Assembly: GCF_014203795.1 (NCBI RefSeq)
Contig: NZ_JACHJU010000001.1
Span: forward strand, 4,526,001 to 4,590,000
Length of the DNA: 64,000 nucleotides
From: Streptosporangium album
GTDB taxonomy: Bacteria; Actinomycetota; Actinomycetes; Streptosporangiales; Streptosporangiaceae
Direction of reading: 5' to 3'
Shown here: positions 44,291-59,486 of the stretch, piece by piece
Layout: each line of letters begins with the position of its first letter
How positions within the stretch are numbered: position 1 is the first letter of the stretch
Notes under the pieces: model-generated
Told to the model about the DNA's origin: nothing
The model's database searches: none
What the model saw: only the letters and a program-made list of their open reading frames with translations
Made by a program: the position numbers and the translations under genes

Positions 44291-44525
44291 CCTGCTCGGA
44301 CAGCTCTCTCCGCCGCTGCTGCTGGCCGTCGCCGGGCTGCTGATCGGTGTCGTCCTGGTCATCATCTGGGTGACCCGCGTCAGGCCGAAGGCCGGCGGCG
44401 GGGCTCAGTCGAGGACGCGGCCGACCATCCGGGCGTACATCCGGCCGGGGCTGGGCGTCGACGGCGGGTTGAGGAAGCCCGGGAGCATCGGGAGGTCCAC
44501 GGCGAAGGGCTGCAGGCGCTCGTAG
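44283..44525 (+). CDS. Possible small membrane protein
   Basis: A GTG at 44283 overlaps the methyltransferase stop. The first 35 residues, with SPPLLLAVAGLLIGVVLVII as a single membrane helix, look genuine. After about residue 40 the frame runs antisense through the protein-kinase 3' end (stop at 44525) and the sequence there is shadow-like. It may be a real short gene coupled to the methyltransferase, or a chance frame. Confidence 0.3.
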   Translation: MSDLLGQLSPPLLLAVAGLLIGVVLVIIWVTRVRPKAGGGAQSRTRPTIRAYIRPGLGVDGGLRKPGSIGRSTAKGCRRS

Positions 44526-45298
44526 AGGGTGTCGGCGCCGGTGGGACGCCGGTCGGGGTCCTTCTCCAGGAGATCCTCGATCAGGCGGTTCAGCTCCGGC
44601 GGGACATCGGGGACGGCGGGCGGTCGCTCCTTCACCTGGCGTTCGAAGACGGCGTACTCGGTGGGTCCGGTGAAGAGCTGCCTGCCCGTCAGCATCTCGT
44701 GGATCACACAGCCGAGGGCGTAGAGGTCGCTGCGGGGGCCGGAGAGGCCGCGCTGGATCTGCTCGGGAGCCATGTAGGCCGGGGTGCCGAGGATCTGCCC
44801 GACCCGGGTGAACCGGGTCGAGTCCGCCTCGCGGAGCATGGCCAGGCCGAAGTCCAGGACCTTGACGCTGCCGTCGGGGCAGAGCATCAGATTGGTCGGT
44901 TTGAGGTCGCGGTGGTAGATGGAGAGCGCGTGGGCGGCCGACAGCACGGCACACGCCTGAGCGGCGATCGCGGCCGCCCAGGGGACCGGGAGCGGGCCGT
45001 GCTCGCTGACCAGGTCGGCCACGGTGACGCCTTCGATGAACTGCATCACCTGGAAGAGCCGCTGGTCGAAGGTGCCGAAGTCGTAGAGGACCGGCGCTCC
45101 GGGGTGCTCCAGCTTCGCCAGGATGCGGGCCTCGCGCAGGAAACGCCGGTTCAGCTCCTCGTCCGGCCCGCTGAGCAGGCGCAGGAACTTGACGGCCACC
45201 TTGCGGTCGAGGTGCTTGTCGTGGCCGCCGTAGACAGCGCCCATGCCGCCCTGGGCGAGGGGGAGGTCGTCGAGCACGTATCGGTCACCGATGACCAT
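44405..45298 (-). CDS. Serine/threonine protein kinase (Hanks type)
   Basis: 297 residues, essentially a kinase domain alone. ATP loop LAQGGMGAVYGG (residues 14-25), K37 in VAVKFLR, catalytic loop HRDLKPTN with D131, D149 in DFG, activation-loop end APEQ, and PEQIQRGLSGPRSDLYALGCV. All catalytic residues are present. No transmembrane or PASTA sensor domain follows, so it is a cytoplasmic kinase. A DNA methylase gene is immediately upstream on the same strand (27-base gap), and a PP2C phosphatase is divergent beyond that, which would allow phosphorylation and dephosphorylation of shared targets. Confidence 0.95.
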   Translation of the reverse strand: MVIGDRYVLDDLPLAQGGMGAVYGGHDKHLDRKVAVKFLRLLSGPDEELNRRFLREARILAKLEHPGAPVLYDFGTFDQRLFQVMQFIEGVTVADLVSEHGPLPVPWAAAIAAQACAVLSAAHALSIYHRDLKPTNLMLCPDGSVKVLDFGLAMLREADSTRFTRVGQILGTPAYMAPEQIQRGLSGPRSDLYALGCVIHEMLTGRQLFTGPTEYAVFERQVKERPPAVPDVPPELNRLIEDLLEKDPDRRPTGADTLYERLQPFAVDLPMLPGFLNPPSTPSPGRMYARMVGRVLD

Positions 45299-45325: not shown

Positions 45326-47224
45326 TCACACCCCTTGGTCGCACGGCCGGAGGTGGCCGTCAACCAGTCCGTCAAAGCCTAGCCGGATCAGCGTTTCCCC
45401 CAGTGCCGTCGTCTCTCGCACCCGGTCCTCCAGTGCGAACAGCTCACGGAAGGCCACGCCGTACCGTCGCTGGTCGGCGAGGGGGAGCATCGGCACCCGG
45501 GCCCGCCGCACGTCCAGGCGGCTGGAACTGGGGTGGACGCGGGCCGCGTCGGCGGAGCGGAGGAAGCCGGCCAGGAAGTCGGCGTCGAGCCGGTGCGGGT
45601 CGACGCGGTAGAGGGTGAGCTGCGGGCCGAGCGCCGCGCCGCTCCGCGTGATCACCCGGACCGTGCCCAGGGCGGTGGTCACGACGTCGCCGGGCCTGAT
45701 CATGACCAGTGCGGGGTCGAGGGTGGTCCTTCCGGAGGGGGGCGTGCCCAGGGCGGTGTCGTCGGCGGTCAGGACCGGGAGCGGTCCCTCGTCGGCCGAC
45801 ATCTTGGGCGGGGCCTGCAGGATGGTGATCAGGCCCGCCTTGGCCAGCTCACCGACGGTGGTGGTCGGCAGGTCCTGCCGCTCGTTGAGCAGCTCAAGCG
45901 CCGGAGGGGCTTCCGGCAGCATGGCCGAGGTGTCACGGAAACGGTCCAGCGCGTCGGCGAAGTCGCGCAGGAAGTCCGGGCCGCCCAGCTGCGGGCGGTG
46001 CCGGGCGGGGGTGAGGTCCACCTCGTCGTCGAGCAGGTCGATGATCCGCACGGTCCGGCTGTCGCCCGACAGCTCGACCTCCGGATTTCGGGCGTAGGCG
46101 TGCCAGGCGGGTTCCACGGCCGACAGGTCCTCGCTCGCGTCCACCATCAGGAGCTGGGACGCGGGGCGCCCTCCGTCGGGGCGGCGCAGGATCCACAGGT
46201 CGGGACCGCCCAGGCCCAGCGTGACCACGGCCCGGAGCGCCCCGCTGCGCAGCAGGTTGCCCCGGATGCGCTTGCCCGGCCGGCGGCCGGCGGCCGCCGC
46301 CGGCATCAGGATCACCACCAGGCCGCCCGGTCTCACGTGGGCCAGGCAGTGCTGGACCCAGGCCAGCTCGGACTCTCCGCGTGGCGGCAGGCCGTACTCC
46401 CATCGGGGGTCGCCGGTCAGCTCCTCGTAGCCCCAGGCCCGCTCGTTGAACGGCGGGTCGCAGACGACGGCGTCGGCGAGCTCGCCGGTCAGGCCGTCCT
46501 CACGCAGCGAGTCGCCGGCCACGATCCGCGCCTTGGCCCCGCGCAGCAGCAGCCGGACCGCCGCGAGCAGCGCGTTCGTCTCGTTGCTCTCCTGGCCGAG
46601 CGAGGCGCCGGCGTGCAGGAGGAGGGTTCCGACGCCGCAGGCGGGGTCGAGGACCATCCCGGTGCCCTGACCGGCCAGCCGGGACATGAGGGCGGCGACG
46701 TCGTCCCGGGTCACCGAGAGCTGGCGGGAGTGGGCCTCGACGTAGCGCTCGCAGAGGAACTCGAAGGTGTCCAGCGGGCCCCGTTCGGCGGCCAGTTCGG
46801 CCACCAGCCTGACGAGCGCGAGGTCGTCCAGCCGCAGGTCGGGGGAGCCGGGAAGATCCGTCGTCGCGGCGGTCAGGCCGGTGAGAGACTGTGTGCCGTG
46901 TTTCCGCCACACCTCCGGCTCCCTGTGCAGGAACAACAGGAACGCGCCGACCCTGCCCACCAGGTCGCCCAGGCGCAGGTCGTCGACCGAGGTCCGCAGC
47001 CGCTGCCAGACCAGGTCGCCGAGGGAGACCTCGAACGACTTGCCGTTGCGGCGCAACCACGCGGCGATCTCGGGCAGGGAGAACAGCGGGCTGGAGGCCG
47101 TGCCCCCCACGGGCTGGGGAAAGTCATCGTGGCGGCGGCGCCAGTTGCTCACCGCGGCCCGGCCGACGGAGGCGAGCCGGGCGATGTCGCCCGCGTTCAC
47201 CGTGATGTCCTGGCTCTCCTCCAT
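45326..47224 (-). CDS. Orphan N6-adenine DNA methylase, HsdM-HsdS-like fusion
   Basis: 632 residues from the ATG at 47224. An N-terminal helix-turn-helix (DIARLASVGRAAVSNWRRRH) resembles a winged or AlpA-like domain. A HsdM-like helical region precedes motif I LDPACGVGT (192-200) and motif IV DPPF (256-259), which marks amino-methyltransferases. The C-terminal third (TTTVGELAKAGLI, RPGDVVTTALGTVRVI, ARVPMLPLADQRRYG) resembles half of a type I specificity subunit. No restriction subunit is nearby, so it is an orphan methylase or regulatory DNA modifier. It shares an operon with the protein kinase and is divergent from a PP2C gene 84 bases away. Confidence 0.85.
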   Translation of the reverse strand: MEESQDITVNAGDIARLASVGRAAVSNWRRRHDDFPQPVGGTASSPLFSLPEIAAWLRRNGKSFEVSLGDLVWQRLRTSVDDLRLGDLVGRVGAFLLFLHREPEVWRKHGTQSLTGLTAATTDLPGSPDLRLDDLALVRLVAELAAERGPLDTFEFLCERYVEAHSRQLSVTRDDVAALMSRLAGQGTGMVLDPACGVGTLLLHAGASLGQESNETNALLAAVRLLLRGAKARIVAGDSLREDGLTGELADAVVCDPPFNERAWGYEELTGDPRWEYGLPPRGESELAWVQHCLAHVRPGGLVVILMPAAAAGRRPGKRIRGNLLRSGALRAVVTLGLGGPDLWILRRPDGGRPASQLLMVDASEDLSAVEPAWHAYARNPEVELSGDSRTVRIIDLLDDEVDLTPARHRPQLGGPDFLRDFADALDRFRDTSAMLPEAPPALELLNERQDLPTTTVGELAKAGLITILQAPPKMSADEGPLPVLTADDTALGTPPSGRTTLDPALVMIRPGDVVTTALGTVRVITRSGAALGPQLTLYRVDPHRLDADFLAGFLRSADAARVHPSSSRLDVRRARVPMLPLADQRRYGVAFRELFALEDRVRETTALGETLIRLGFDGLVDGHLRPCDQGV

Positions 47225-47308
47225 ACTTGGCCACAGTAGTTCACTGTGCCTTAACGGTCTACAACACCTTTGCTTGTGAAGTGCTTCAACCAATGCTTTA
47301 CTGCCTTC

Positions 47309-48106
47309 ATGGCACTGAACGAAGGATTGGCCCTGCGCTACGCGGCCCGCTCCGACGTAGGAGTCCGCCGCGAGGCGAACGAGGACTCGGGCTACGCGAG
47401 CGCTCGCCTGCTCGCCATAGCCGACGGCATGGGCGGTCATGCGGGCGGGGAGGTCGCCAGCTCACTTGCCGTCACCGCCATGGCGTCCCTGGACGCCGGT
47501 CTTCCGGACAGCGGTGTCGACCTGGTCGCCGCCCTGAAGGGCGCGGCCACGGACGTCAACCACACGCTGCACGACATGAGCGAGCAGGACCCCACGTTAC
47601 GGGGGATGGGCACCACCCTGACCGCCATGTTGTGGGACGGCGCCACCTTCGCCCTCGCCCACGTCGGAGACTCCCGCGCCTACATGCTGCGCGGCGGCGC
47701 CCTCTACCAGATCACCCATGACCACACCCTGGTCCAGTCGCTGGTGGACGAGGGCCGCATCACCCTGGAGCAGGCCGCCGAGCATCCGCGCCGGTCCATG
47801 GTGCTGCGGGTCCTTGAGGGCACCGGTGACGGCGAGCTGGACCTCTCCCTGCGCGAGGCCCAGCCGGGCGACCGCTACCTCCTGTGCTCCGACGGCCTGA
47901 CCGGCGTGGTCGGCCCGGAGACCCTGTTCAACACGCTGACCGAGATCGCCGACCCCGGCGAGGCCGCCCGGTGGCTCATCGACCTGGCCAACCGGGGCGG
48001 TGGCCCCGACAACATCACCTGCATCGTGGCCGACTTCGGAGCCCACCCCGTCTCCGCCGAGCGGATCGTCGTGGGCGCCGCGGCCGAGAGGAAGCTGACG
48101 CCCTGA
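47309..48106 (+). CDS. PP2C-type protein phosphatase
   Basis: 265 residues. All metal-site motifs of the PP2C/PPM family are visible: RREANEDSGYA, LAIADGMGGHAGGE, FALAHVGDSRAYMLR, LLCSDGLTGVV and GGGPDNITCIV. It resembles mycobacterial PstP but lacks a membrane segment, so it is cytoplasmic. The start ATG at 47309 is used; in-frame codons upstream have no conserved sequence. It is divergent from the methylase/kinase operon and probably reverses phosphorylation by that kinase or others. A close paralogue lies at 58496-59257. Confidence 0.95.
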   Translation: MALNEGLALRYAARSDVGVRREANEDSGYASARLLAIADGMGGHAGGEVASSLAVTAMASLDAGLPDSGVDLVAALKGAATDVNHTLHDMSEQDPTLRGMGTTLTAMLWDGATFALAHVGDSRAYMLRGGALYQITHDHTLVQSLVDEGRITLEQAAEHPRRSMVLRVLEGTGDGELDLSLREAQPGDRYLLCSDGLTGVVGPETLFNTLTEIADPGEAARWLIDLANRGGGPDNITCIVADFGAHPVSAERIVVGAAAERKLTP

Positions 48107-50379: not shown

Positions 50380-53300
50380 CTACGGCTCCGGCGACAGGCG
50401 GTCGGCGGCCTGCTCGATGGCCGTGCTCACCCGGTCGGCCAGCAGGCCGACCGCGCCGACCGCCCTGGTCACCGGGTCGTCCTCAGCGCCGCCGAGTGCC
50501 TTCTGACGCAGGTAGGCCGTCTTCACCTCGGCCCACCGCCCGGCCTGCCCGGCTGTCATGGTGCCCCGCAGCTCGGCCAGCTTGAGCAGGTTGGCCTCGG
50601 CGCCGGAGGTGAGGGTCCGGGCCTCGCCGAGATAGTGATCGTCGATCACCGCCTCCAGTTCGGCCTCGTTCATGACCGGGACGATCCTGGCGGCGAGCTT
50701 GTTCATGTTCCGGTAGGAGCCCTGGAGCTGGAACGGAGGTTCGGTCCTGGACGCGTCGGACTGGGCGGCCGAGGCGATGTAGGCCCGGTTGCCGGCCAGC
50801 ACCACCCGCTGGACGCGGAGCAGGTGGCGCAGGACCGGGAGGATCTCGTCGAGCTCCGCGGCGGAGTACGGGTGGGAGAGCCGGTCGGCCCGGGCGGTGG
50901 GATCGCCCTGCGCCAGCCGTACCAGGAGACGGACGTCACCGCGGTCCCGCGTGGACAGCGGGGCGAGGAACGGGTTGGAGGTGAGCGCGTTCTCGACGTA
51001 GCTCAGCGCGAACAGCTCCTCCTTGCCGGACAGCACCTCGCCGAGATTCCACACGTCGGCACGGTTGGCCAGCATGTCGGGGATGCGGAACCGCGTGCCG
51101 GACTCGGTGTACGGGTTGCCCGCCATGCAGACCGCGAAGCGCTTGCCGCGCAGGTCGTAGGTGCGGGTCTCACCCTCCCAGACACCCTCCATCCGCCGCT
51201 GGCCGTCGCACAGCGAGATGAACTTCTGCAGCAGCTCGGGGGAGGTGTGCTGGATGTCGTCGAGGTAGAGCAGCACGTTGTTGCCCATCTCCAGGGCGAA
51301 CGAGATCTTCTCGACCTCCTGACGTGCCGTCGCGTCGGGTGCCCGCGCCGGGTCCACCGAGGTGACCAGATGCCCCAGGGCGGGGCCGCTGACCTTCACG
51401 AACATCAGGCCGAGCCGGCTGGCGACATACTCCATGAGAGTGGTCTTGCCGTAGCCGGGCGGCGAGACGAGCAGCAGCATGCCCATCTGGTCGGTCCGCT
51501 TGGCGTCACCGGCCGCGCCGATCTGCTTGGCCAGGTTGTCGCCGATGAGCGGGAGATAGACCTCGTCGAGGAGCTCGTTGCGCACGAAGGCGCTCAGCAC
51601 CTTCGGCCGATACTCCTCCAGACGCAGGCGTGCCCGCTCGGCGGCGACCAGGTCGTTGCGCCGCCGCTGGTAGGCGCGGTAGGCGGGGACACGGTGCTCA
51701 CGGAAGTGCCGGGTCCGGCCGAGGAACTCGTCCAGGCGCAGCTCCAGCGCGCGCCCGGTGATCCGCGGGTGCGTGCCGAGCAGCCCCTCGACCGTGGTGG
51801 TCAGGGCCGCGGGGGAGTCGTACCGGGCCACCTCGCACAGCCGTACGGCCACCGCCTCCGGCAGCTCGGCCGGTGACTCGAACGCCCCCAGCCACGCCTC
51901 GGCCAGCCGGTGACGCCCGGCGAGGTCGTCCCCGAGCGCACGCAGGTCGTCGTCGAACTCCTGGCCTGACGCCCCCAGCGCCCGGTCGAACCGCTCCAGC
52001 AGCGACCGTGCCCCCGCGCTCGTCACGAACCCCGGCGGCTCACCGGCCAGCTCCTCGAAGAGGTACTCCCCGGCGAGCGCGGGGACGTCCTCGCCGCCCT
52101 GCCCGCCCGCGCTCTGGGAGGCGCCGGGCGCCGGGGCCGCCCGGCCGTCCCCGGCGGCCACGCCTCCCGCCGTGTCGCCCGCGGCGCCGCCGAGACCGGC
52201 CATGAAGGTCGCGATGGCCGAGCCGAGCGCGCGGCGCGTCTCCTCCACAGCGCCGACCCGGCCGAACAGGGAGCGTGCCCGCGCCAGCGAGACCGCCCGG
52301 GTGCTCCAGGTCACCCGGGAGGGCTCGTCCACGCCGAAGGCCCAGAAGAGCTGGGCCGCCGCCCTCGCCGCAGGGGGGTAGCGCAGCAGGCCGGCGTCCG
52401 TGTGCAGCCGCAGCAGGGCCGCCAGGATCGCGGTCGCGTCGTGGTCGTGCACGCCTCGCTCGTAGCCCTCGTCGTAACGGGCCTGCGCCACCGTGCGGAC
52501 GATCTCCAGCAGGCCGCCGCCGGCGTCCGCCGCCGCGCGCAGCGTGTCGAGCGTGACGGCCGACTCGCCCGCGCTCAGCGTGCCGGACTCGGCGCCGGCC
52601 AGGATGGCGGCGGCCAGGTGCTCGCCCCGGTAGACCTCGGCCGTCTCGGAGACCAGCGACTGGTTCCAGAACGGAAGGGTCTCGGCGAACGTCTCGTCGC
52701 GCACCGGCGAGCGGTAGTCGGTGCCGGTTATGGCGAACGCCGGCCGGCCCTCGTGCGGCACCAGCGTGAGCTCGGTGGCCTGGGTGTTGACGGCGAACCG
52801 GTGCGGTCCCAGGCGGATCGTCTCGCCGCCGTCGGCGTACAGGTCGAGCCGGTCGCGCAGGGCGCGGCCCGCCTCCTGGCGGGCGGACTTGATCCGGCCT
52901 TCGAGCTCCTCGGCCCGGACCGCCTCGCCCAGCGCGCGCAGCTCCCCGGTCACGCCGTGCAGCTTGACGATCATCGGATCGGAGCCGAAGTAGGTGTTGA
53001 CCTCGTCGAGCGATCCGAGCCCGGCCGCCCGGCGGCGCACACCGGCCAGGATCCGGGTGGCGGATTCGGCCAGCCGGTCGGCCTTGCGGGCGCGCTCGTC
53101 CAGCAGCGCCTGCCGCCGCGCGGAGAACACCTCGTAGACGTCCTCCCGCTTGGCCGCCAGCCGGGCCAGGAAGTCGTCGAACTCGGCGAAGCGCGACTCC
53201 AGGCCCTCCAACTGGAGCATCAGCCGGCCGAGCTGCTCGTCGCAGCGCTCGGGGGTGCCGGCCATCGCCAGCGCCCCGGTGATCGCCTGTCCCAGCAGCG

Positions 53301-55455
53301 CGAACTCGGCCGCGAACGCCGCCCGGCCCTCGCTCGACAGCAGCTCCCCGCGGCGGGCGTCCAGCGCGGCGCGGGCCCGGTTGATCCCGCCGAGCACCTC
53401 GCCGACCCGTTCCAGGATCGCGGTCCGCACGGTCGCGTCGGCGATGTCGAGCGTGCCGACCACCTCGACCACGACCTCCAGGCCCTGCGACTGCCCGGTC
53501 AGCCGCTCACCGATCGGCCCGGCCTCGGCCACCGTCGTGATGGCCCCGGCGTCGGAGACCAGCCGCTCGACCTCCGCGTGGTAGCCGGCGAAGGCGTCCT
53601 CGCCCCGCAGGAAGCCGGCCGCGCGCTGCGCGGTGGCGTCGAGTTCGGTGTCGAGTTCCGCGCGCAGCCCGTCGATCCGGCCGGTGTCCACGTAGCGCAG
53701 CTCGCGCAGGGTCACCAGACGTCCCTGGGCCCGCCGCAGCTCGGCGAGGTGGGTGATCCACTCCTGCGCGGAGCGGGGCTCCTGCGCGTGTGCCCGCCGT
53801 ACCAGGGAGAGGATCTCACCGGCGGTGGTCTCCAGCGCGGTCGCGGCCTGCTCGGTGAGCGACTGGACCTTCTCGAACTCCTCCAGCACCTGCTCGGCGG
53901 AGGCCCGCACGTCGGCGAGCGGACCTCGCAGGCCGTGCTCGCCCAGCCAGTGGTAGTGGTCGAAGGCCCGGGCGCAGGCAGCGATCAGCGCCTCGAAGAC
54001 GGGGACCGACGGCGCCATCTCCTCGATCATCCGGGCCACCGAGAGGCAGTCGGAGATCCCGCGCACCAGTTCGGCGTTGCCGATCCGTTCCAGCGGCCCG
54101 GTACCCGCCGGCTGGGCGGCGGCGTGCAGGTCCGACACGTATGGCGTCTGCCAGACCTGCATCGGGTGGACCCGGGTGGGCTCGTCCGAGATCGCCTTGA
54201 AGACGATCAGCGTGCCGTCGTCGAACAGCGAGTAGCCGTGGCAGGACAGGGGGGTGGAGACCTCCTTGCGGATCACGTTGTACGGCAGCAGCAGCGACCG
54301 GCCCTCGGCGTGGGCGTGGAAGACGTAGAGCACGTCCTCGCCGTTGCCGGAGCGGATGACCCGCTCGAACTCCAGGTCGGAGACGTCGGTGTCGAAGGTC
54401 TTGCTGACCCCGGTGGACAGGTGGTAGCCGCCGGGGAAGATGATCCCCTGGTCCTCGGGGAGACGCTGGCAGGCCTGGCCGATGCCGTCGAGGCGGACCA
54501 CGCCCTTGGTCTGGGTGTTGAAGACCAGGTGACGCCACTCGGTCTCGTTGTAGGGACGGACGCGCAGCAGGATCAGCGGGCCGACCCTGGCGTGGCAGAC
54601 GTCGGCGTCGGCGAGGCTCTGCAGCGGTTCGGCGACCGGCTCACGGTAGACGCCCTCACCGGTCTCGGTGTTGTTCTCGATCTTGATGGTGAGGTCGCCG
54701 CCGACGGTCTCGACGAACACCTCACCCTGGATCGAGATGTGCGGGTGGCGGCCGAGCACGTGGTCGTCGCGGGTGGCCGGGATCCACTCGAAGTCATGCG
54801 AGGGTGGGAAGACGTGGTCGCGTTCGCCCCGGTCGTCGATGTAGGTGAGGGCGCCGTCCACCCCCACCTGCCAGCGCAGCACGCGGATGTCCTGCGGTCC
54901 CGTCTGGAAGACGGCCAGCATCCTGCCCTCGATCCGGCGGAGCTGGAGCAGCCGTGTCTCCCGGTAGTAGCGGTAGAGCTCGGCGAAGTCCCGTTCGAAC
55001 TGCGGATGCCGGAACAGCGGTGCGGGATCGAACCGGAAGGCGTCACCGTCCAGGCCGCCCCCGGCGCCCGCCGTTCCCCGCACGAAGGTGTGCATGGAGA
55101 AGACGTCCCCGACGGTCGTCTCGGGCTTCAACCCCATGAACACGTTGTAGCCGAACAGGATGAGCCCCTGCCGGTGGTCGTGTCCGTCTCCCGCCCCCTC
55201 GCGCGGGCCGGCCGTCCCGCCGAGCGCCACGATGTCACGGGGGACACAGTTGTTCTCGGTGCGGATCCGCTCGGTGCCGATCAGGCGGAGCTCGGTCCCG
55301 CCGAAGACCTCAAGGCGCCGGGCGTTGAGGGTCTCGGACTGCCGGGCCAGCTCGGCCGCCCGCTCGGCGAGCCGGGCGCGGAGCACCTCGTAGGTGCCCG
55401 CGTCCAGCCCTGAGTGGCCGCCCGGAGCGTCGACGACCTCTGTCACGGGCGTCAC
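50380..55455 (-). CDS. Giant AAA+ ATPase, DUF3686 'DNA repair ATPase' family
   Basis: 1691 residues. The N-terminal half carries the DUF3686-like region, a beta-rich domain (about 55-460: LILFGYNVFMGLKPETTVGD, HPHISIQGEVFVETVGGDL). A long helical coiled-coil-like part (about 480-900) follows, and the C-terminal AAA+ module has Walker A SPPGYGKTTLMEYVA (K1337) and Walker B VLLYLDDIQH (D1399, D1400); the arginine-rich GNPYTESGTRFRIPDM region probably holds sensor and finger residues. The family is annotated as a DNA-repair ATPase, but I know of no direct demonstration. A GTG start overlaps the flotillin stop (GTGA), so production is coupled to the flotillin. The gene-pair context suggests a membrane-scaffolded remodelling ATPase. 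Confidence 0.85.
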   Translation of the reverse strand: MTPVTEVVDAPGGHSGLDAGTYEVLRARLAERAAELARQSETLNARRLEVFGGTELRLIGTERIRTENNCVPRDIVALGGTAGPREGAGDGHDHRQGLILFGYNVFMGLKPETTVGDVFSMHTFVRGTAGAGGGLDGDAFRFDPAPLFRHPQFERDFAELYRYYRETRLLQLRRIEGRMLAVFQTGPQDIRVLRWQVGVDGALTYIDDRGERDHVFPPSHDFEWIPATRDDHVLGRHPHISIQGEVFVETVGGDLTIKIENNTETGEGVYREPVAEPLQSLADADVCHARVGPLILLRVRPYNETEWRHLVFNTQTKGVVRLDGIGQACQRLPEDQGIIFPGGYHLSTGVSKTFDTDVSDLEFERVIRSGNGEDVLYVFHAHAEGRSLLLPYNVIRKEVSTPLSCHGYSLFDDGTLIVFKAISDEPTRVHPMQVWQTPYVSDLHAAAQPAGTGPLERIGNAELVRGISDCLSVARMIEEMAPSVPVFEALIAACARAFDHYHWLGEHGLRGPLADVRASAEQVLEEFEKVQSLTEQAATALETTAGEILSLVRRAHAQEPRSAQEWITHLAELRRAQGRLVTLRELRYVDTGRIDGLRAELDTELDATAQRAAGFLRGEDAFAGYHAEVERLVSDAGAITTVAEAGPIGERLTGQSQGLEVVVEVVGTLDIADATVRTAILERVGEVLGGINRARAALDARRGELLSSEGRAAFAAEFALLGQAITGALAMAGTPERCDEQLGRLMLQLEGLESRFAEFDDFLARLAAKREDVYEVFSARRQALLDERARKADRLAESATRILAGVRRRAAGLGSLDEVNTYFGSDPMIVKLHGVTGELRALGEAVRAEELEGRIKSARQEAGRALRDRLDLYADGGETIRLGPHRFAVNTQATELTLVPHEGRPAFAITGTDYRSPVRDETFAETLPFWNQSLVSETAEVYRGEHLAAAILAGAESGTLSAGESAVTLDTLRAAADAGGGLLEIVRTVAQARYDEGYERGVHDHDATAILAALLRLHTDAGLLRYPPAARAAAQLFWAFGVDEPSRVTWSTRAVSLARARSLFGRVGAVEETRRALGSAIATFMAGLGGAAGDTAGGVAAGDGRAAPAPGASQSAGGQGGEDVPALAGEYLFEELAGEPPGFVTSAGARSLLERFDRALGASGQEFDDDLRALGDDLAGRHRLAEAWLGAFESPAELPEAVAVRLCEVARYDSPAALTTTVEGLLGTHPRITGRALELRLDEFLGRTRHFREHRVPAYRAYQRRRNDLVAAERARLRLEEYRPKVLSAFVRNELLDEVYLPLIGDNLAKQIGAAGDAKRTDQMGMLLLVSPPGYGKTTLMEYVASRLGLMFVKVSGPALGHLVTSVDPARAPDATARQEVEKISFALEMGNNVLLYLDDIQHTSPELLQKFISLCDGQRRMEGVWEGETRTYDLRGKRFAVCMAGNPYTESGTRFRIPDMLANRADVWNLGEVLSGKEELFALSYVENALTSNPFLAPLSTRDRGDVRLLVRLAQGDPTARADRLSHPYSAAELDEILPVLRHLLRVQRVVLAGNRAYIASAAQSDASRTEPPFQLQGSYRNMNKLAARIVPVMNEAELEAVIDDHYLGEARTLTSGAEANLLKLAELRGTMTAGQAGRWAEVKTAYLRQKALGGAEDDPVTRAVGAVGLLADRVSTAIEQAADRLSPEP

Positions 55456-57488
55456 TGCTTGCCGGAGCCGAGAGCGGCGGCCGGAGCCTCGGCGGGTTCA
55501 GGCGTGCCGCCCAGCAGGTCACGCAGCCTGTCGGCGTCGGCGCCGCCCGAATTGATCAGTTTCACCAGCAGCGCGGAGAGGGAGAGGTTGCGCACGTCGG
55601 CGGTGTCGAGCGAGCCGGCCATCCTGCCCAGGTCGGCCGGCAGGCTCTGCGAACCGTCCAGGTACGGCCCGGCCAGCACCTGGGCGACGTCGGAGTGCTG
55701 CACGAAGCCGTCCACGACCTTGCCCATGCCGATGGAGCCCACCACCCGGTCGAGGAACACGCTGTCGCCGCCGACGATGTCGATGTTGGCCTTGGACAGG
55801 CCCGCCGACAGCACCTCGGCCTGCGCCTCGGCGACCTTGAGCTGGACGTTCACCCCGGCGAGGCGGATCTCCCTCTCCGCCTCCAGCCGCAGGCGGTACT
55901 CCTCGTGGCCGCGGCTCGCCTCGTCCAGAGCGGCTAGCGCCGCCGCCTTCTCGGTCAGACCCTCGGCCTCGGCCTTGAGCTTCTCCCGCACCCCCATGGC
56001 GGAGGCCAGAGCCTTGGCCTGGTCGCCCTCGGCGACGGCCAGGGCCTTCTCCCGCTCGACCTGGGCCTCGGCGCGGCCGACCTTCTCGATCGCGGCGGCG
56101 TCCCGCTCGCGCACCTGCACCTCGGCCAGACCGGCCGCCGCCGCCTCGGCCTGGACGCCCTCGGCCAGGCGGATCTTGGCGCGGGCGTCGAGTTCGGCGG
56201 CCTGTTGCCGCGACTCGGCCAGCACCAGCACCTCGCGCGCCCTGTGCCGGGACGCCGCCTCCGACGCCTCGGCCGCCTTGATGTCCTTGACCAGGCTCTC
56301 CTGCGCCTCGGCCTCGGCCTGGATGATCACGGCCTGGCGGGTCCGCTCGGCTTCCTCGACGACCCGCAGGCGCTTGATGTTCTCCTCCTGCTCGGCGACC
56401 GTCTTCTCCACCGCGATCCGCTCCCGCATCACCTCGGCGATGGAGCGCTTCTCGCCTTCGAGCTCCTTGTCCTTGGAGATGCGCGACAGCTCGGTCTCGC
56501 GCTCGCGGGAGATGACCTCCAGCATGCGGTCCTTCTCGATCCGCTCGGACTCGATGGCGATGACCCGCTCGCGGTTCTTGGCCGCCACGGCGATCTCGCG
56601 GGCCTGGTTCTCCTGCTGGATCCCGAGCTGCTCGTCGGTGCGCAGGCCGGCGGCCTGCGCCTTGAGCCGCTCCTCGGCCTGGACCTTGGAGATCTCCGCC
56701 TCCTCGCGGGCCCGCATGGTCTCGACCTCGCGCCTCTGCTTGATCTCCGCGTCGGCCTGGCGGCGCTCCAGCTCCAGGATGGCCTCCCGCGCGTCCACGT
56801 TCTGGCGGGTGATCTCCTTCTCCTCGTGCCGCTGGAACTCGTTGGTCCGCACGTGCTCGATGGCGGTCAGCTCGGTGATCTTCCTGATGCCCTGCGCGTC
56901 GAGGATGTTGTTCTTGTCGAGAGAGGTCAGCGAGGTCTGCTCCAGGTAGTCGATGGCCGCGTCCTCAAGGCTGTAGCCGTTCAGATCGGTGCCGATGACC
57001 TGGATGATCTGGTCGCGGAACTGGTCGCGCTGGGTGTAGAGGTCGACGAAGTCGAGCTGCTTGCCGACCGTCTTGAGAGCCTCGGAGAACTTGGCGTTGA
57101 ACAGCTCCTGCAGCGTCTCCTTGTCACTGGCACGCGCGGTGCCGATGGCCTGGGCGACCTTGACCACGTCCTCGACGGTCTTGTTCACCCGGACGAAGAA
57201 GGTGATCCGGATGTCGGCCCGGATGTTGTCCCGGCAGATCAGGCCCTCGCGGCCGGTCCGCGCGATCTCGATGGTCTTCACCGAGATGTCCATGACCTCG
57301 GCCCGGTGGAACACGGGCAGCACGACCGCGCCGGTGAAGGTGACGTCCACCTTGTTGACCTTGGAGATGATCAGTGCCTTGCCCTGCTCGACCTTGTTGA
57401 ACAGTCTGCTGATCATGATCAGCAGACTGACGACGACGAGAAGGATGACGGCGAGAAGAATGCCCAGCCCTGTGGAGATGACGTCCAT
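55452..57488 (-). CDS. Flotillin-like SPFH/band-7 protein (YqiK/FloT type)
   Basis: 678 residues. An N-terminal membrane helix (residues 5-26: LGILLAVILLVVVSLLIMI) is followed by an SPFH/band-7 domain (about 30-210: VEQGKALIISKVNKVDVTF, DNIRADIRITFFVRVN, IDYLEQTSLTSL). A very long Glu/Ala/Arg-rich coiled coil spans about 215-560, with a short C-terminal region (GGDSVFLDRVVGS, ALLVKLINSGGAD) of the flotillin type. Flotillins oligomerise into membrane rafts or scaffolds. It sits between a YqiJ-like membrane protein (12-base gap) and the DUF3686 ATPase (overlapping start), so the three proteins probably form one membrane-associated complex. Confidence 0.93.
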   Translation of the reverse strand: MDVISTGLGILLAVILLVVVSLLIMISRLFNKVEQGKALIISKVNKVDVTFTGAVVLPVFHRAEVMDISVKTIEIARTGREGLICRDNIRADIRITFFVRVNKTVEDVVKVAQAIGTARASDKETLQELFNAKFSEALKTVGKQLDFVDLYTQRDQFRDQIIQVIGTDLNGYSLEDAAIDYLEQTSLTSLDKNNILDAQGIRKITELTAIEHVRTNEFQRHEEKEITRQNVDAREAILELERRQADAEIKQRREVETMRAREEAEISKVQAEERLKAQAAGLRTDEQLGIQQENQAREIAVAAKNRERVIAIESERIEKDRMLEVISRERETELSRISKDKELEGEKRSIAEVMRERIAVEKTVAEQEENIKRLRVVEEAERTRQAVIIQAEAEAQESLVKDIKAAEASEAASRHRAREVLVLAESRQQAAELDARAKIRLAEGVQAEAAAAGLAEVQVRERDAAAIEKVGRAEAQVEREKALAVAEGDQAKALASAMGVREKLKAEAEGLTEKAAALAALDEASRGHEEYRLRLEAEREIRLAGVNVQLKVAEAQAEVLSAGLSKANIDIVGGDSVFLDRVVGSIGMGKVVDGFVQHSDVAQVLAGPYLDGSQSLPADLGRMAGSLDTADVRNLSLSALLVKLINSGGADADRLRDLLGGTPEPAEAPAAALGSGKQ

Positions 57489-57500
57489 GTGGTCCCTCGG

Positions 57501-58094
57501 CTAGATAGGACGGTGGGGATCGAGTTCCGCGTCGTACGGCATCACCCAGAAGAACTCGCCCGCTGCGTCGTAGGCGAATATCAGGGCGGTGCTGCCGGCG
57601 TCGAAAGCGTCGTCGCCGACCTGACGGACTTGCACGAGAGCGGAGGAACCGTCCGCGGCGGTGACCTCGGCCTGCCCGAAGTCCCTGCCGACCCGGCCGG
57701 TACGGATGACACACGTCCGGCCCACGAAGTCGGTGCGGGAGGGGAGCCGTTCCTTGGAGGAGGCGCGGCGCAGCGGCAGCAGGATCAGGCGGGTGCCGGC
57801 CCAGGCGCAGACGAGTGCCGCCGCCAGCACGCCGATCAGCACGAGGGTGCCGCTGAACAGCACCCCGCCGACCAGGCTGACGAACCAGGCGATGACCACC
57901 ATCAGTGACACGGCCACCGCGATCGGCGCCCCGCCCAGCCCGAGACCGCTGAGGAATCCCGCCGACTCGTCGATGTCGCCGTCGAACCCGATGCCGCTGG
58001 CCACCGCGAACAGCCAGTAACCGACGACCACCACAAGGAGGAATGTGAAAAGGACTGTCGGGAAAGCTAAAACCGCATCGACGAACTGACCCAT
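57501..58094 (-). CDS. YqiJ/NfeD-like membrane protein with OB-fold tail
   Basis: 197 residues. Three hydrophobic segments (about 10-33 FPTVLFTFLLVVVVGYWLFAV, 56-80, and 82-105) are followed by a small soluble beta-domain (about 118-170: DFVGRTCVIRTGRVGRDFGQ, EVTAADGSSALVQVR) that looks like the OB-fold of YqiJ/NfeD proteins. Such proteins are regular partners of flotillins. It is the first gene of the operon; the 130 bases upstream are unusually AT-rich and should carry the promoter. AGGGGA is the nearest ribosome-like sequence, a little far from the ATG, so the start is not certain. Confidence 0.85.
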   Translation of the reverse strand: MGQFVDAVLAFPTVLFTFLLVVVVGYWLFAVASGIGFDGDIDESAGFLSGLGLGGAPIAVAVSLMVVIAWFVSLVGGVLFSGTLVLIGVLAAALVCAWAGTRLILLPLRRASSKERLPSRTDFVGRTCVIRTGRVGRDFGQAEVTAADGSSALVQVRQVGDDAFDAGSTALIFAYDAAGEFFWVMPYDAELDPHRPI

Positions 58095-58225
58095 TGGCGT
58101 ATGAGATCCCCTGTTGACGTGCCCAGCGACGCTCCCCGAGCGTATGTGAATGACTATACAAACTTAAAGATTAGATAAAGGGGATAGTTCCCGAAAAGGA
58201 AGAAAAGTTGCCGCATACGCGAGAA

Positions 58226-58283: not shown

Positions 58284-58376
58284 TCAGGCGGGCCGGGTGA
58301 TCATGTAGGCCAGGCCGACGAGGATCACGACGGGGATGAGCCACACGATCGCCTCGATGGCGAATTCCTTGTACAT
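58284..58376 (-). CDS. 30-residue single-pass membrane microprotein
   Basis: From an ATG at 58376 with GGAAGGG upstream, the protein reads MYKEFAIEAIVWLIPVVILV and ends GLAYMITRPA. One membrane helix fills most of its length. Start, ribosome site, stop and a terminator hairpin 22 bases after the stop all support a real gene. It lies between the PP2C gene and the YqiJ-flotillin-ATPase operon, all on the minus strand. Its function is unknown; small partner or regulator of a membrane complex is a possibility only. Confidence 0.6.
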   Translation of the reverse strand: MYKEFAIEAIVWLIPVVILVGLAYMITRPA

Positions 58377-58495: not shown

Positions 58496-59257
58496 CTACG
58501 AGGGGACGGCCGAACCGACCACCACGGGGGTGTCCGTGCCGGGTCCCTCGACGACGTCCGCCACCACGCAGGTGATGTTGTCGGGACCGCCCGCCTCGCA
58601 CGCCAGCCCGATGAGCTGCCGGGTGACCTCGCCGAGATCGTCGACCTCGGCGAGCACGTGGCGGAGCTGGTCGGCCTCGACCACCCCCGACAGGCCGTCG
58701 GAGCAGAGCAGATAGCGGTCACCGACCTCGGCGTCGCGCAGGGAGAGGTCGGGGTCGATGGCGTCGCCGCCGTCCAGAACCTGGAGCAGGATCGACCGGT
58801 GCGGGTGCCGGGCGGCCTCCTCGGCGGTGATCCGGCCGTCGTCCATCAGCGTCTGGACCAGGGTGTGGTCGTAGGTGATCTGGTAGAGATCACCGTTGCG
58901 GAGCAGGTAGGCGCGGGAGTCGCCGATGTGGGCGAGGGCGACCCGCGGCCCGTCCCAGAGCATCAGGGTCAGGGTGGTGCCCATGCCGGTGAGGCTCGGG
59001 TCCTCCTCGACCAGCTCGCGCAGGCGCTGGTTGGCCTTGCGGACCCCGGCCTCGGCCGAGGCGACCAGATCGTCGGGTTCCTCATGGTCCAGGGCGGCGA
59101 CCGTGGCGATCGCCGCCGAGCTGGCGACCTCGCCACCGACATGGCCGCCCATCCCGTCGGCTACGGCGAGTAGCCGGGCGCCGGCGTAGGCCGCGTCCTC
59201 ATTGCCCTGGCGGACCCGGCCGACATCGGAGCCTGCCGCATAGCGGAGCGTGATCAT
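58496..59257 (-). CDS. PP2C-type protein phosphatase (second copy)
   Basis: 253 residues from the ATG at 59257 (a GTG two codons upstream is also possible). PPM-family motifs: RVRQGNEDAAYAGARLLAVA, DGMGGHVGGE, VALAHIGDSRAYLLR, LLCSDGLSGVV and GGPDNITCVVADV. Roughly half its residues match the PP2C at 47309-48106, including the DHTLVQ.L.D.GRIT block, so the two are paralogues. It is cytoplasmic without a membrane segment. It is upstream of the microprotein and the flotillin/ATPase operon, and divergent from prfC. Confidence 0.95.
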   Translation of the reverse strand: MITLRYAAGSDVGRVRQGNEDAAYAGARLLAVADGMGGHVGGEVASSAAIATVAALDHEEPDDLVASAEAGVRKANQRLRELVEEDPSLTGMGTTLTLMLWDGPRVALAHIGDSRAYLLRNGDLYQITYDHTLVQTLMDDGRITAEEAARHPHRSILLQVLDGGDAIDPDLSLRDAEVGDRYLLCSDGLSGVVEADQLRHVLAEVDDLGEVTRQLIGLACEAGGPDNITCVVADVVEGPGTDTPVVVGSAVPS

Positions 59258-59486
59258 CTTCACACCACTGCAAGGTCGAGTTGCACGAGTAGGTCGCTTT
59301 CGGGCAGTTGGGGCGGGCATAGGGCGAACCGAGTTGTTCCACAATCCACTGAACGCCATGGTGACGCAAGCGACCCGGGGAAGTGTTGCCACATCTGTTG
59401 ACAGGTGTGGCTGCGCGTAAGCTGTTTCAGCGCCCCGCGGACCGACGGGGGGCTCCCCACCTTACGCACGGCTAGGAGACCAGGAA

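Follow-up and report, generated by a model that had tools for sequence, protein, structure and literature searches.

A 64,000-nucleotide stretch of the Streptosporangium album genome (contig NZ_JACHJU010000001.1, positions 4,526,001 to 4,590,000; this whole stretch is called the window) carries on its minus strand a three-gene operon that encodes, in order, a membrane protein, a flotillin, and a giant AAA+ ATPase with a DUF3686 domain. Genes for ATPases of this family are preceded by a flotillin gene at every related locus whose upstream sequence is available, and the three genes are inherited or lost together. From this strict pairing, the active-looking motor of the ATPase and the precedent of other SPFH proteins, we consider it fairly likely that the ATPase remodels complexes held at a flotillin scaffold and that the three genes constitute one co-inherited membrane unit. 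The components of the operon are as follows.

57501..58094, minus strand: YqiJ/NfeD-like membrane protein, 197 amino acids (family hidden Markov model (HMM), hhalign, weak NfeD matches in relatives)
57489..57500, minus strand: spacer of 12 bases between the membrane-protein and flotillin genes (sequence)
55452..57488, minus strand: SPFH/band-7 flotillin-like protein, 678 amino acids (Pfam Band_7, family HMM compared with E. coli YqiK)
55452..55455, minus strand: GTGA overlap of the flotillin TGA and the ATPase GTG (sequence)
50380..55455, minus strand: DUF3686 ATPase, 1691 amino acids (Pfam)

The gene order, strand, sizes, 12-base gap and GTGA overlap are all as the initial annotation of this DNA had given them. 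All three reading frames are open and complete, and they look like real genes, as evident by a third-position GC content of 0.86-0.95 in a window of 70% GC. The GTGA overlap may permit translational coupling of the flotillin and ATPase genes. At other loci, judged from mechanically assigned starts of open reading frames (ORFs), a 4-base overlap is present in 15 of 44 own-family loci, 14 of 79 genome_contigs loci, one of 11 plasmid records and none of 10 phylum loci, and the gap between flotillin and ATPase genes is shorter than 100 bases in 115 of 144 loci.

Pairing and joint inheritance of the three genes

Loci that encode DUF3686 were collected from 11 of 12 records of a plasmid collection (H6 was omitted), from the best 80 of 550 confirmed genome_contigs relatives (at least 594 pattern stretches), a sample that leans to close relatives, from 100 sampled genomes of the family (45 regions in 44 genomes besides the window's own), and from 396 sampled genomes of the phylum (10 regions in 8 genomes besides the window's own). 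Eleven loci lie outside Actinomycetota (L042-L046, L049-L051, L102, L123 and L127), where the phylum names of named loci come from their records or from general knowledge. A gene was counted as upstream if it resides on the same strand at a distance of less than 2500 bases. Wherever upstream sequence exists, flotillin is encoded 5′ of the ATPase in the same orientation: in 11/11 plasmid, 79/79 genome_contigs, 44/44 family and 10/10 phylum loci. After collapsing six genes found in two samples and leaving out L064 and L185, whose contigs start at the ATPase, flotillin precedes the ATPase at 138 of 138 distinct loci in five phyla. The flotillin match reaches at least 280 bits at 137 of these, and the other (L181) is a remnant that scores just 23 bits. 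At L187 the ATPase is broken and the gap is 2013 bases. The triad arrangement is not a product of chance.

This neighborhood count was proposed in the initial annotation as the test of its claim that the ATPase goes with flotillin and not with repair genes. The claim has held, as evident by the absence of any locus with upstream sequence that lacks flotillin (counting the single remnant), and by the fact that the nine representatives scanned from the larger neighbor clusters include no repair gene. These same observations argue against a function as DNA-repair ATPase, which the protein's name in databases and Pfam's description of PF12458 imply, and we judge that reading extremely improbable.

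The membrane-protein gene is present at 118 of the 138 loci. Four others provide no sequence at the relevant position, and 16 have no such gene beside flotillin; 13 of these 16 are named Streptomyces, 14 have no nearby upstream ORF with two hydrophobic helices, and one (G046) carries a membrane-protein copy on a different contig. With flotillin at every locus and the membrane protein at fewer, the strict core of the system is flotillin plus ATPase.

True fusions of flotillin and ATPase, suggested by long open frames in several genomes, were considered and rejected. At L089 flotillin is split over two frames, and at L132 the long frame crosses the flotillin gene, as judged from ORF tables only. 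At L089 (7817-14824) the flotillin frame is interrupted, and its initial portion continues in frame with the ATPase, which is probably a frameshift rather than a fusion.

Presence of the triad is close to all-or-none. Among the 100 family genomes, in which 11 first-look flotillin candidates were scored per genome, DUF3686 and the membrane protein are each found in 45, and flotillin, at E 1e-20 or better, in 44. All three are present in 44 genomes and none in 54, while G023 has only a DUF3686 fragment and G048 only a borderline membrane-protein match (E 9.5e-4). Both states occur within 7 of the 31 genera that were sampled more than once, and these mixed genera lead us to infer several gains or losses of the complete triad. 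The remnant in G023 (L181, 11292-12521) indicates joint decay, since a piece of the membrane protein runs into a piece of flotillin in one frame and is followed by the first part of the ATPase (238 residues), leaving traces of all three genes. Pairwise distances of ATPase and flotillin across 130 loci correlate with r 0.891, against a maximum of 0.27 after shuffling, and the two trees have 57 well-supported splits in common. The all-or-none inheritance suggests that the set functions as one piece.

A patchy distribution (45 of 100 genomes in the family sample and 9 of 396 in the phylum sample, both counts including the genome of the window) and the occurrence of the operon on plasmids would also be expected of an anti-phage defense system that travels as a mobile cassette; defense is a role the initial annotation had entertained. 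PADLOC, however, yields only weak hits to IetA at the level of the P-loop (best E 0.0017), a scan of 74 viral candidates turned up no relative, and no evident defense gene is found among the nine neighbor-cluster representatives. We therefore set this role aside as very improbable.

A distinctive flotillin and a giant ATPase

The flotillin is the lowest-scoring Band_7 protein of its genome (24.7 bits; cut-off 23.6), which contains seven Band_7 matches, one DUF3686 match and two PspA matches. Just 18 of 62 ATPase-linked flotillins match Band_7 at E 0.01. A profile built from 140 linked flotillins recognizes E. coli YqiK with 186.7 bits; the match spans residues 10-441 of 553 and leaves the C-terminus uncovered. 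The Pfam Flot C-terminal domain (PF15975), which E. coli YqiK possesses, is found in none of the 62 linked flotillins scanned (of 140) at E 0.01. These proteins carry instead a conserved C-terminal tail (IVGGD...GKVVDGF in the window's flotillin, which also has a hydrophobic segment at its N-terminus), and 136 of 137 linked flotillins contain [IVLF]GG[DES] within their last 220 residues. In a comparison that set E. coli YqiK, as the sole unlinked flotillin, against the linked ones, this tail emerges as a candidate docking site for the ATPase.

The membrane protein has hydrophobic stretches in its N-terminal portion and a soluble C-terminal part. It yields no Pfam match, and the YqiJ_N and YqiJ_OB models match neither this protein nor 14 linked proteins at E 0.1, while NfeD is matched weakly in 2 of 14 relatives. 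The family resembles E. coli YqiJ weakly (HMM score of 22 bits; hhalign probability 83.6%, E 8.2e-6). The YqiJ-like partner named in the initial annotation is thus a less strict companion than flotillin, missing from the 16 loci described above, and its likeness goes unrecognized by the Pfam YqiJ models. A sequence search of the Protein Data Bank (PDB) returned no match for either the flotillin or the membrane protein.

The ATPase matches DUF3686 (PF12458) at 704.7 bits (cut-off 25) over model positions 1-448 of 448, and further matches DUF7902 (103.6 bits), AAA (27.4 bits; cut-off 21.2) and AAA_5 (26 bits; cut-off 22). Pfam finds no protease domain in it. Its parts are listed here.

53950..55353, minus strand: DUF3686 domain, residues 35-502 (Pfam); strands at about 57-436 form a predicted beta-propeller
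52840..54096, minus strand: long helical, coiled-coil-like middle, about residues 454-872, with DUF7902 at 620-703 (Pfam, predicted fold)
52435..52449, minus strand: HDHDA motif, residues 1003-1007 (alignment)
50536..51588, minus strand: AAA+ motor, about residues 1290-1640 (Pfam, motif alignment, fold search)

An alignment of 145 sequences, which omits the truncated rows L181 and L186 and retains six duplicate loci, reveals strong conservation of the motor. Walker A begins at 1331, Walker B (YLDDIQ) includes D1399 and D1400, and sensor 1 is N1447; our own assignments add R1465 as a candidate arginine finger and R1582 as a candidate sensor 2. Residues G1336, K1337, T1338, D1399, D1400, N1447, R1465 and R1582 are each present in 145/145 sequences, and a motor with this set of residues looks active. 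In the HDHDA motif, H1003, D1004 and D1006 are likewise present in all 145 sequences and H1005 in 129; one might guess that it forms a metal site.

In structure predictions, which were made on single chains, the best VIA-align fold matches of the motor domain are the MoxR proteins NorQ and CbbQ, and in this ranking the predicted fold would place the motor near MoxR proteins. This likeness makes it reasonable to consider a MoxR-type maturation chaperone that, like NorQ and CbbQ, would insert a cofactor into a membrane enzyme or activate it, in this case at the flotillin scaffold. No VWA partner was found by Pfam among 14 proteins of the window and the nine neighbor-cluster representatives, however, and a likeness of fold shows no function, with Foldseek placing RuvB chains beside NorQ and CbbQ. 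A chaperone of this type therefore seems to us quite unlikely.

The RuvB chains (Foldseek rank 2, E 6.9e-8) and a partial P-loop match to RuvB of 24.5 bits, below the 27-bit cut-off, are the structural and sequence observations in favor of a repair function. However, the sequence likeness is limited to residues 1307-1361, and the 50 entries that VIA-align displays do not include RuvB. They do not include Vps4 either, which is mere absence from a list. When the ATPase was used to search PDB sequences, weak matches in the P-loop region were obtained to VCP-like ATPases, Rix7, NVL, the proteasome subunit Rpt3, a cell-division protein and RuvB.

Neighboring genes and the operon leader

Many long ORFs in GC-rich DNA are antisense artefacts, and therefore a codon-position filter was applied when neighbors were clustered across 141 loci; clusters of six or fewer loci were identified in part only. 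ATPase and flotillin are present at all 141 loci, the membrane protein at 90 by this coarser measure, a regulator at 39, and every other cluster at 14 or fewer. The regulator is a PucR-type protein (GGDEF_2, HTH_30; for example L103, 5923-6990). With its profile, a copy turns up close to the operon in 41 of 146 loci; in 29 of 146 the gene is divergent and no more than 1500 bases away from the operon's first gene. Loci that carry it belong to Streptomyces or to genomes of the phylum sample, and none was found in the family sample or among the 14 window proteins scanned. Where it adjoins the operon, this protein is a candidate for its control. Eight further clusters are represented by an ABC ATPase, a TrkA-N protein, a flavin adenine dinucleotide enzyme, a protein kinase, a CBS protein, a solute-binding protein, an MFS-plus-sigma frame and a dehydrogenase.

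In the window, the next likely same-strand gene on the 3′ side encodes a hydrolase, whose start side is 434 bases from the operon. On the 5′ side lies an AT-rich stretch, followed by a gene for a PP2C phosphatase.

58095..58192, minus strand: AT-rich leader and candidate promoter region, with a GGGAACTAT...CTTTA...CTTTAT-like block (found by eye)

By eye, this block is common to 6 of the 43 relatives listed (L143, L144, L150, L152, L155 and L167), and in L183 the sequence is missing. A sigma-70 scan of the operon leader gave no promoter match; the region may nonetheless serve as a promoter. A 30-residue ORF (58284-58376, minus strand) located 5′ of the membrane-protein gene is 81-100% identical over 27-30 residues in L143, L144, L150 and L167, and may encode a real small membrane protein.

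PP2C-type phosphatase genes lie on both sides of the region (47270-48106, plus strand; 58496-59392, minus strand), and the latter protein resembles Stp1/IreP at 220.8 bits (cut-off 230). Farther along the minus strand, a Ser/Thr kinase gene (44405-45298; Pkinase 157.9 bits; best PADLOC family PD-T4-6) adjoins a gene for an N6 DNA methylase (45326-47440) that is similar to type I methyltransferases. The two are possibly a defense pair.

A proposed mechanism and its relation to known systems

We propose that the flotillin, an SPFH protein, would assemble a scaffold at the membrane's inner face, with assistance from the YqiJ/NfeD-like integral protein where one is present. The ATPase would be the motor, comprising a C-terminal MoxR-like AAA+ ring, long helices in the middle of the protein and an N-terminal beta-propeller that could recognize a client or the scaffold itself. 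ATP would then drive the assembly, disassembly or pulling of protein complexes at the scaffold, probably in response to envelope stress. The nearest working comparison would be FtsH inside the HflKC cage, minus the protease domain. Gene order, co-occurrence, co-loss and intact catalytic residues are the observations on which this proposal is based, to which the predicted folds add; physical contact between the proteins, hexamer formation and the direction of action are what we infer from them.

Several observations weigh against this proposal. Adjacency is evidence of a common pathway but not of contact. Supported splits in the flotillin tree clash with 19 of the 93 well-supported ATPase splits, and ATPase and flotillin have the same closest relative in just 77 of 130 loci. 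The locus itself revealed no link to stress. Moreover, a PspA gene is adjacent at just 2 of 146 loci and is absent among the window proteins scanned. The PspA profile used for this count was built from six sequences including both adjacent ones, its first version matched E. coli YjfJ at 50 bits and PspA at 17 bits, and a very distant PspA could escape it.

This scarcity bears equally on the alternative that the ATPase is a Vps4-like partner that recycles PspA polymers, which the flotillin merely docks, with PspA encoded elsewhere in the genome. The two loci with an adjacent PspA gene, on the Pseudomonas plasmid pQBR103 (L042) and a Hymenobacter plasmid, hold it in a cluster with a YjfI or Tir-type chaperone gene. 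The window's genome has its two PspA genes elsewhere, the P-loop region is weakly like classical AAA proteins (VCP-like, Rix7, Rpt3) in sequence, and Ravi et al. (PMC11237479), who describe such operons, propose a distant PspA for the abbreviated ones. With the gene so rarely adjacent and the predicted motor fold ranking closer to MoxR proteins, this alternative appears unlikely, although PspA is a possible client; the repair and defense readings have little support. On pQBR103 the operon resides in a large cluster that also encodes YjfI, PspA, a rhomboid protease, DUF2491, DUF350 and DUF1190 proteins and a glutathionylspermidine synthase-like protein. In E. coli, yjfI-yjfJ-yjfK-yjfL-yjfM-yjfC forms a separate cluster.

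Remodeling at a flotillin scaffold is the reading we prefer, and it could be carried further, as a speculation, to a non-proteolytic counterpart of FtsH-HflKC. In such a system the altered C-terminal tail of a flotillin cage would dock a MoxR-like, propeller-bearing AAA+ ring, and a self-contained, horizontally moving cassette would use ATP hydrolysis to remodel membrane protein complexes without PspA or a protease. The 'DNA-repair ATPase' label in annotated records steers experimenters wrongly, whereas a motor that none of the 138 loci carries without its own flotillin offers an unusually clean handle on the long-standing question of what bacterial flotillins do.

The initial annotation had considered the system little described. 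Operons that combine a CesT/Tir-PspA dyad, a band-7/flotillin protein, a YqiJ/YuaF protein and an AAA+ ATPase were described by genome comparison in 2024, as were more widely distributed abbreviated operons that lack the dyad, some with the ATPase, for which action with a distant PspA was suggested (Ravi et al., PMC11237479). The window's operon is the abbreviated form: it shares the YqiJ-like protein (by weak likeness), the band-7/flotillin protein and the AAA+ protein with propeller and coiled coil, and lacks the dyad, as this form does by definition. Computational description thus predates our analysis; no experiment on a DUF3686 ATPase or the triad was found in the literature searched. The name DUF3686 is absent from that literature, including Ravi et al. 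(its supplements aside), and no paper in it brings together 'DNA repair ATPase' and 'flotillin'.

Related work, as represented in the available parts of each source, includes an SPFH protein that positions PspA at the Bacillus subtilis membrane (PMC8581546), a knockout of a YqiK relative, in a paper whose main text nowhere uses the word ATPase (PMC1468410), a study of SPFH genes of Pseudomonas aeruginosa (PMC13086221), SPFH-NfeD operons (PMC2636767) and work on PspA contexts (PMC9239133).

E. coli yqiJ-yqiK has the same order of membrane protein then flotillin, and YqiK is recognized by the linked-flotillin profile. However, no ATPase gene follows, and YqiK carries Flot while YqiJ carries YqiJ_N and YqiJ_OB, unlike the proteins of the window. 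HflKC-FtsH, as presented in the available part of a report that also covers a flotillin cage (PMC11260169), unites an SPFH assembly with AAA+ hexamers, as the window's flotillin and ATPase would do. FtsH is a protease, whereas the DUF3686 ATPase has no such domain by Pfam and, in the VIA-align ranking, a different AAA+ type comes nearest to its motor. NorQ and CbbQ, which provide the best matches in that ranking, are small and act together with a VWA protein (NorD, among the entries listed), whereas the DUF3686 motor shares its chain with a propeller and long helices. Thus, the association of these genes in an operon was already known, and our analysis adds the link to DUF3686, the counts, the co-loss, the predicted MoxR-like motor fold, the Flot-less flotillin branch and the PucR-type regulator.

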